This document shows, in pieces, positions 7,633 to 7,688 of a stretch of DNA of 64,000 bases. Every line of letters starts with the position of its first letter. Position 1 is the first letter of the stretch. The stretch is from an uncultured Pelagibacteraceae bacterium (GTDB taxonomy: Bacteria; Pseudomonadota; Alphaproteobacteria; Pelagibacterales; Pelagibacteraceae). Under the pieces are notes generated by a model that searched no databases, was not told where the DNA came from, and saw nothing but the letters and a program-made list of their open reading frames with translations. The stretch is taken from NCBI GenBank assembly GCA_902530885.1, contig CACABZ010000004.1, positions 1 to 64,000 of the forward strand, read 5' to 3'. Made by a program: the position numbers and the translations under genes.

Positions 7633-7646
7633 AATTATCTAGATAT

Positions 7647-7671
7647 CTAGTTTATAATAATTCTAAACTAG
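7647..7671. promoter_or_regulatory. Candidate Irr/ICE box upstream of katG
   Basis: CTAGTTTATAATAATTCTAAACTAG: perfect 8-bp inverted repeat with 9-bp spacer; core matches TTTAGAA-N3-TTCTAAA with one mismatch. Confidence 0.6.
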
Positions 7672-7688
7672 AAAGTCAATAAAGATAA

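Follow-up and report, generated by a model that had tools for sequence, protein, structure and literature searches.

It is known that Fur-family repressor genes can lie directly upstream of their catalase or catalase-peroxidase targets, as in mycobacterial FurA-katG and in Streptomyces FurS/CatR, and many members of these systems are autoregulated. The SAR11 irr-katG locus described here has the same arrangement; however, its regulator belongs to the Irr clade, the slot behind it also takes rubrerythrin, and katG has its own inferred promoter in the intergenic gap. The targets of PerR regulons include catalase or rubrerythrin. With Bacillus and Clostridium PerR the locus shares the box, one mismatch from TTATAATNATTATAA, and the same five metal ligands of the regulator, whereas the SAR11 protein lacks the structural zinc cysteines and has its best family scores with Irr. 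The iron-control element (ICE) of rhizobia and other alphaproteobacteria (Bradyrhizobium, Brucella, Rhodobacter) is similar in its TTTAGAA half-site, the N3 spacer, the palindromic structure, the location at a promoter and the adjacent Irr-family gene, but in SAR11 the second half, TTATAAA, doubles as the -10 hexamer, and the strict regulon comprises irr and one peroxidase locus rather than many iron genes. Finally, the alphaproteobacterial irr-rubrerythrin neighbourhood has the same order, fabA / irr / ICE-like box / rbr-CCG, differing in that here katG takes the place of rbr behind the box.

Irr sites upstream of catalase-peroxidases were predicted by Rodionov (2006), as cited in PMC2464607, and hence the idea that Irr acts on katG predates this work. 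SAR11 bacteria are among the most abundant ocean organisms, and katG is known from most offshore Pelagibacteraceae genera (PMC12636525); P. ubique, cited as lacking catalase (PMC3033426), is a case in the debate about which marine organisms remove peroxide, and about the iron cost of KatG. Our literature search found no account of the control of Pelagibacteraceae katG, and, as far as the searched literature shows, the new features in SAR11 are the near-absolute conservation of the site, its fusion with the -10 hexamer, the one-locus regulon and the interchange of katG and rubrerythrin behind a shared operator.

The window, that is, the whole analysed stretch of 64,000 nucleotides from an uncultured Pelagibacteraceae bacterium, contains on the minus strand katG (5461..7632), which encodes a catalase-peroxidase of 723 amino acids and is the proposed regulated gene, and irr (7689..8108), which encodes a Fur-family regulator of 139 amino acids, the probable operator binder; fabA is on the plus strand (8186-8692). 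A gene for a DUF2061 membrane protein directly 3' of katG (5217-5459, minus strand) accompanies katG in most katG loci and was not found where rubrerythrin (rbr) replaces katG. The 56-nt gap between irr and katG contains the 25-mer CTAGTTTATAATAATTCTAAACTAG at 7647-7671, an extended palindrome assigned to the minus strand, with a perfect outer 8 bp and 11 of 12 pairs matching overall, 15-39 nt upstream of the katG ATG. The minus-strand core TTTAGAATTATTATAAA (7651..7667), a putative Irr operator core, has one mismatch to TTTAGAA-N3-TTCTAAA (13 of 14 positions): its left half is an exact ICE half-site, and the right half is TTATAAA. Thus, the sequence-only reading was right in describing a perfect 8-bp inverted repeat at this distance from the ATG, one base off the ICE, with irr as the adjoining upstream gene.

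The site is an ICE-like box at the promoter of a heme enzyme gene, adjacent to irr and overlapping the inferred -10. The minus-strand arrangement TTGACT (-35, 7674..7679), 17 nt, TATAAA (-10, 7651..7656) fits a sigma-70-type promoter, as inferred from the sequence; the -10 is conserved and lies inside the right half of the putative operator, which extends over the -10 and the greater part of the spacer, as expected for a repressor site. The katG promoter was missing from the output of a consensus promoter scan, since the scanner demands T at position 6 of the -10. Rfam gave no structured-RNA match in the region. A TTGAC(T/A) hexamer recurs at the -35 position of most irr-katG loci and of many rbr promoters. 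In katG-less relatives the rbr promoters are laid out alike, as with TTGACTTATAGTTTAGAATCATTATAAA in L247, and most of them carry a further box upstream.

The assignment of KatG is straightforward (TIGR00198, 1021.3 bits with the cut-off 770; NF011635, 1031 bits, above the cut-off). The regulator scores slightly below the cut-off of its best family, IrrA (NF045678, 145.1 bits versus 150), and below that of Irr (NF045677, 133 bits versus 170), other Irr family members narrowly passing the models (12 of 247 genomes). Since the Irr models outscore those of Fur and PerR by a wide margin (no PerR model exceeds 71 bits), we call the protein Irr-like, the gene name irr being given by position and best score. 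Among solved structures in the PDB, B. subtilis PerR (2fe3) is its nearest match. The five PerR-type metal ligands, H37, D85, H91, H93 and D104 in the PerR numbering, are invariant in 121 Irr sequences, of which 91 come from SAR11 and 30 from other alphaproteobacteria; the positions matching the structural zinc cysteines of PerR (C96, C99, C136, C139) are not Cys in the window Irr. The PerR ligand numbers used in this comparison are in agreement with PMC4700492, which lists the same ligand residues for B. japonicum Irr and states that its His63 is oxidised like PerR His37. The Cys-Pro heme regulatory motif of B. japonicum Irr was found in none of the 91 SAR11 sequences and in one of the 30 others; being so scarce in alphaproteobacteria, it is not a general mark of Irr. 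A second Fur-family gene in the window (23424-23756, minus strand), present in most relatives, is a candidate rival binder.

Of the 169 genomes of the host genus (Pelagibacteraceae, SAR11), 134 carry katG; the named relatives of the window genome are single-cell genomes such as AG-337-C13. Among 55 distinct irr-katG upstream regions of the genus, the core TTTAGAATNATTATAAA / TTTAGAANNATTATAAA is exact in 53, with TTTAGAANNATTATAAA starting 25-48 nt upstream of the katG ATG, whereas the flanks are only 36% (20 nt 5' of the box) and 48% (the preceding 20 nt) identical in pairs of loci with Irr less than 62% identical. The fit of the core is partly due to selection by the pattern, but A at -2 and T at +18, a symmetric pair outside the selected core, are also invariant in 53 of 53 loci. 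The departure from the ICE (TTCTAAA to TTATAAA), coinciding with the -10, is itself conserved in the same proportion of loci (53/55). The sequence-only reading had made its case depend on conservation of the palindrome among relatives with irr-katG, and such conservation is what we see. There are two exceptions: a good box is absent from the irr-katG locus of G123, and in G111 the arrangement is changed, with ATTAGAACTATTCTAAT ahead of TTGACA and a second near-box at the -10. The boxes are decayed in the three loci where fabA and katG have no irr between them (G005, G061, G101), and no box is present in four katG loci of another KatG type (74% identical) in irr-less genomes.

Several minor observations concern the same loci. 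Upstream of the 74%-identical, irr-less katG genes of L041-L044 (G013, G166, G165, G164) there is an AT-rich palindromic sequence, ATATAATTAAATATAATTATAT, with no ICE, possibly serving another regulator. A second short inverted repeat, TGACAGTTTGTC, is located at the irr stop codon, about 40 nt upstream of katG; it is kept in one subclade of 17 loci (L033, L034-L040, L045, L047, L058-L065 and others) and absent from the subclade of the window. The katG frames of L148 (G079) and L149 (G060) are broken by stops or frameshifts and may be pseudogenes or assembly errors.

The gene behind irr is not constant. In the genus, 118 genomes have both katG and irr, 16 have katG only, 7 have irr only and 28 have neither (counted by hand; several of the katG-only cases are at contig ends). 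All seven genomes with irr only have rubrerythrin, a CCG-domain Fe-S protein and DUF3501 in the place of katG, with boxes between irr and rbr. Other SAR11 genera have katG (at least two types) or rbr behind irr, nearly all with a box. Outside SAR11, the gene behind irr is rbr in 27 of 30 other alphaproteobacteria, and 20 of these 27 loci have an ICE-like box, with no more than 3 mismatches and located within the 220 nt that follow irr. Among about 57 katG upstream regions outside SAR11 there is one ICE-like site, in a Rhodobacteraceae genome (L107). The type of KatG was exchanged while irr and the box were kept: in L033 and L045 the Irr proteins are 93% identical and the KatG proteins, 70%. 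Rubrerythrin was not found in eight genomes of the genus that were searched, in a run made without a positive control. We also considered joint absence of irr and katG as co-loss and dropped this idea: in the well-assembled double-negative genomes G126 and G145 full-length fabA was not found either, hence the region may simply be unassembled. The best explanation of these patterns is an old alphaproteobacterial module of irr, box and peroxidase with a swappable enzyme, the usual one being rubrerythrin.

The strict site, TTTAGAANNATTATAAA, is present in 130 of the 169 genomes; many of these carry two copies, one upstream of irr and the other upstream of katG, and across the 169 genomes the strict site is found mainly ahead of these two genes. 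The other strict matches examined were within ORFs of unrelated function or, in one case, right at an ORF end. In a near-complete relative (G142; 96% complete, 1.08 Mb) the katG site had a weight-matrix score of 29.9 bits and the next best, inside an ORF, 16.9 bits; these sites themselves contributed to the matrix, yet the gap is large. In the window, the irr-fabA gap (8109..8185), where other subclades have the irr autoregulatory box, contains only its decayed version, TTTGGAATTATAAA, as judged from aligned upstream regions of about 60 irr genes. Since this decay is common to the subclade of the window, katG may be the sole strict target there. Thus, by the strict site, the regulon of the window lineage appears to consist of katG alone, although degenerate sites could escape such a search.

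We propose that an Irr dimer produced from the neighbouring gene would bind the palindrome as the operator of the katG promoter. Bound Irr would repress katG, and loss of binding would derepress it; as the operator spans the spacer and the -10, bound Irr should block RNA polymerase. In most subclades a box is also present ahead of irr itself. In much of Pelagibacteraceae, rubrerythrin has been replaced by katG behind the same promoter and operator. The operator reading is well supported by the comparative evidence, and direct repression of katG by Irr, as one case of the old Irr-peroxidase module, is quite probable. The analysis shows the position and conservation of the site, its overlap with the promoter, the sparse regulon, the swapping of the enzyme and the conserved metal site; from these we infer Irr binding, katG repression and the releasing signal, either heme or peroxide oxidation of the metal site. 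Against the proposal we counted the Irr scores below both cut-offs, the exceptional loci G123 and G111, the rise of rbr in iron-limited P. ubique, and the fact that R. sphaeroides Irr does not bind katE, a gene without an Irr box (PMC3413700). From the sequence-only reading we thus retain an operator at the katG promoter for the adjoining Irr-family protein. Its second part, direct iron/heme control, is not supported in that form, as the strict targets are peroxide-detoxifying genes and irr, and P. ubique rbr behaves opposite to the rhizobial Irr logic (PMC2864753). In these bacteria Irr resembles a switch devoted to peroxide defence, a specific and testable one, in which a single regulator and its putative operator serve peroxidases with heme as well as without it. 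This raises the question whether Irr senses iron or peroxide in SAR11 cells.

If Irr acted classically, low heme or iron would stabilise the DNA-binding form, which would repress KatG and save iron, and heme would release it. This is a real possibility, given that the closest curated families are Irr and that KatG is a heme enzyme; however, the Cys-Pro heme motif is absent from all 91 SAR11 Irr proteins, and rubrerythrin, the ancestral partner, contains no heme. A further difficulty comes from P. ubique. One genome (G192), which we take to be that of P. ubique HTCC1062, has irr followed by rbr, CCG and DUF3501, with TTGACTTACAGTTTAGAATGATTATATG ahead of rbr. Under iron limitation, the mRNA of P. 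ubique rbr (SAR11_0399) was up 1.57-fold at 24 h (P 0.025), the SAR11_0401 protein, probably the product of the third gene of the rbr operon, was up 2.21-fold on day 28, and the Irr protein was unchanged (PMC2864753). If the two genomes are the same, an operon with an Irr box rises at low iron, against simple Irr repression; the rbr effect is small, though, and the second box upstream of rbr might act differently.

The same increase of rbr under iron limitation (PMC2864753) would fit a real operator bound by an Irr that is a PerR-type peroxide sensor: the metal-bound form would repress katG or rbr, oxidation of a ligand His by H2O2, or else loss of the metal, would release it, and iron or heme would be merely a cofactor. 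Invariance of all five PerR ligands in the 121 Irr sequences, the PerR entry as the closest in PDB, and the targets, two unrelated peroxidases, one heme and one non-heme diiron, point in this direction, so that it is a tenable, if tentative, interpretation. The metal site, however, is common to heme-responsive rhizobial Irr and hence does not discriminate between the readings, both target enzymes contain iron, which fits iron sensing as well, and the structural zinc cysteines of PerR are missing. The box, similarly, is also one base from the PerR box, and thus sequence alone cannot separate it from an ICE. More doubtful is the broader picture in which the SAR11, perhaps ancestral alphaproteobacterial, Irr would be less an iron regulator than a peroxide switch resembling PerR, its local regulon consisting of one peroxidase locus and irr itself, the enzyme being exchanged while the regulator and the promoter with its operator stay.

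It is very unlikely that the conserved block is just a constitutive promoter, its -10 region retained with no regulator involved. The TTGACT-17-TATAAA arrangement does form part of the block, and the constraint on the -10 may explain part of the invariance, but not TTTAGAA in the spacer or the outer A/T pair, which need no conservation in a promoter. Moreover, the promoters of the 74%-type katG in irr-less genomes have neither of these elements, and the block recurs upstream of irr and rbr and not at other promoters.

A chance palindrome in AT-rich DNA has a negligible probability: palindromes of such size are common in the window and the single-genome ICE counts are not over control, but near-absolute conservation at one place across divergent species, among irr-katG loci, rules it out. 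Inverted repeats with 8-bp arms and a loop of at most 9 number 28 in the window versus 19-32 in shuffles, and 25-mers with at least 11 of 12 pairs, 3 versus 0-2; thus, the palindrome alone is no rarer than chance, and it is conservation that makes the site significant. A genome-wide ICE scan, suggested in the sequence-only reading, recovers the katG site as one of two with at most one mismatch in the 721-kb genome, the other being inside an ORF; at up to three mismatches the ICE counts in this genome do not exceed the control (448 versus 638 for the reversed pattern). The canonical ICE, TTTAGAAN3TTCTAAA, has six matches in the 169 genomes, all inside ORFs, and being at or below the reversed-pattern control it was rejected as the basis of a regulon. 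A canonical ICE is not supported here: the exact element is at background, and what we propose as functional is an asymmetric site, TTTAGAATNATTATAAA, fused to the -10. A wider regulon at one mismatch in G142 and G134 was also rejected, as the counts were lower than in the control and nearly all examined matches were in ORFs. In G142 we also observed a Fur-box-like palindrome, TTGAGAATCATTATCAA (G142:C8:16109, in L338), which precedes a nuoA-like gene by about 110 nt.
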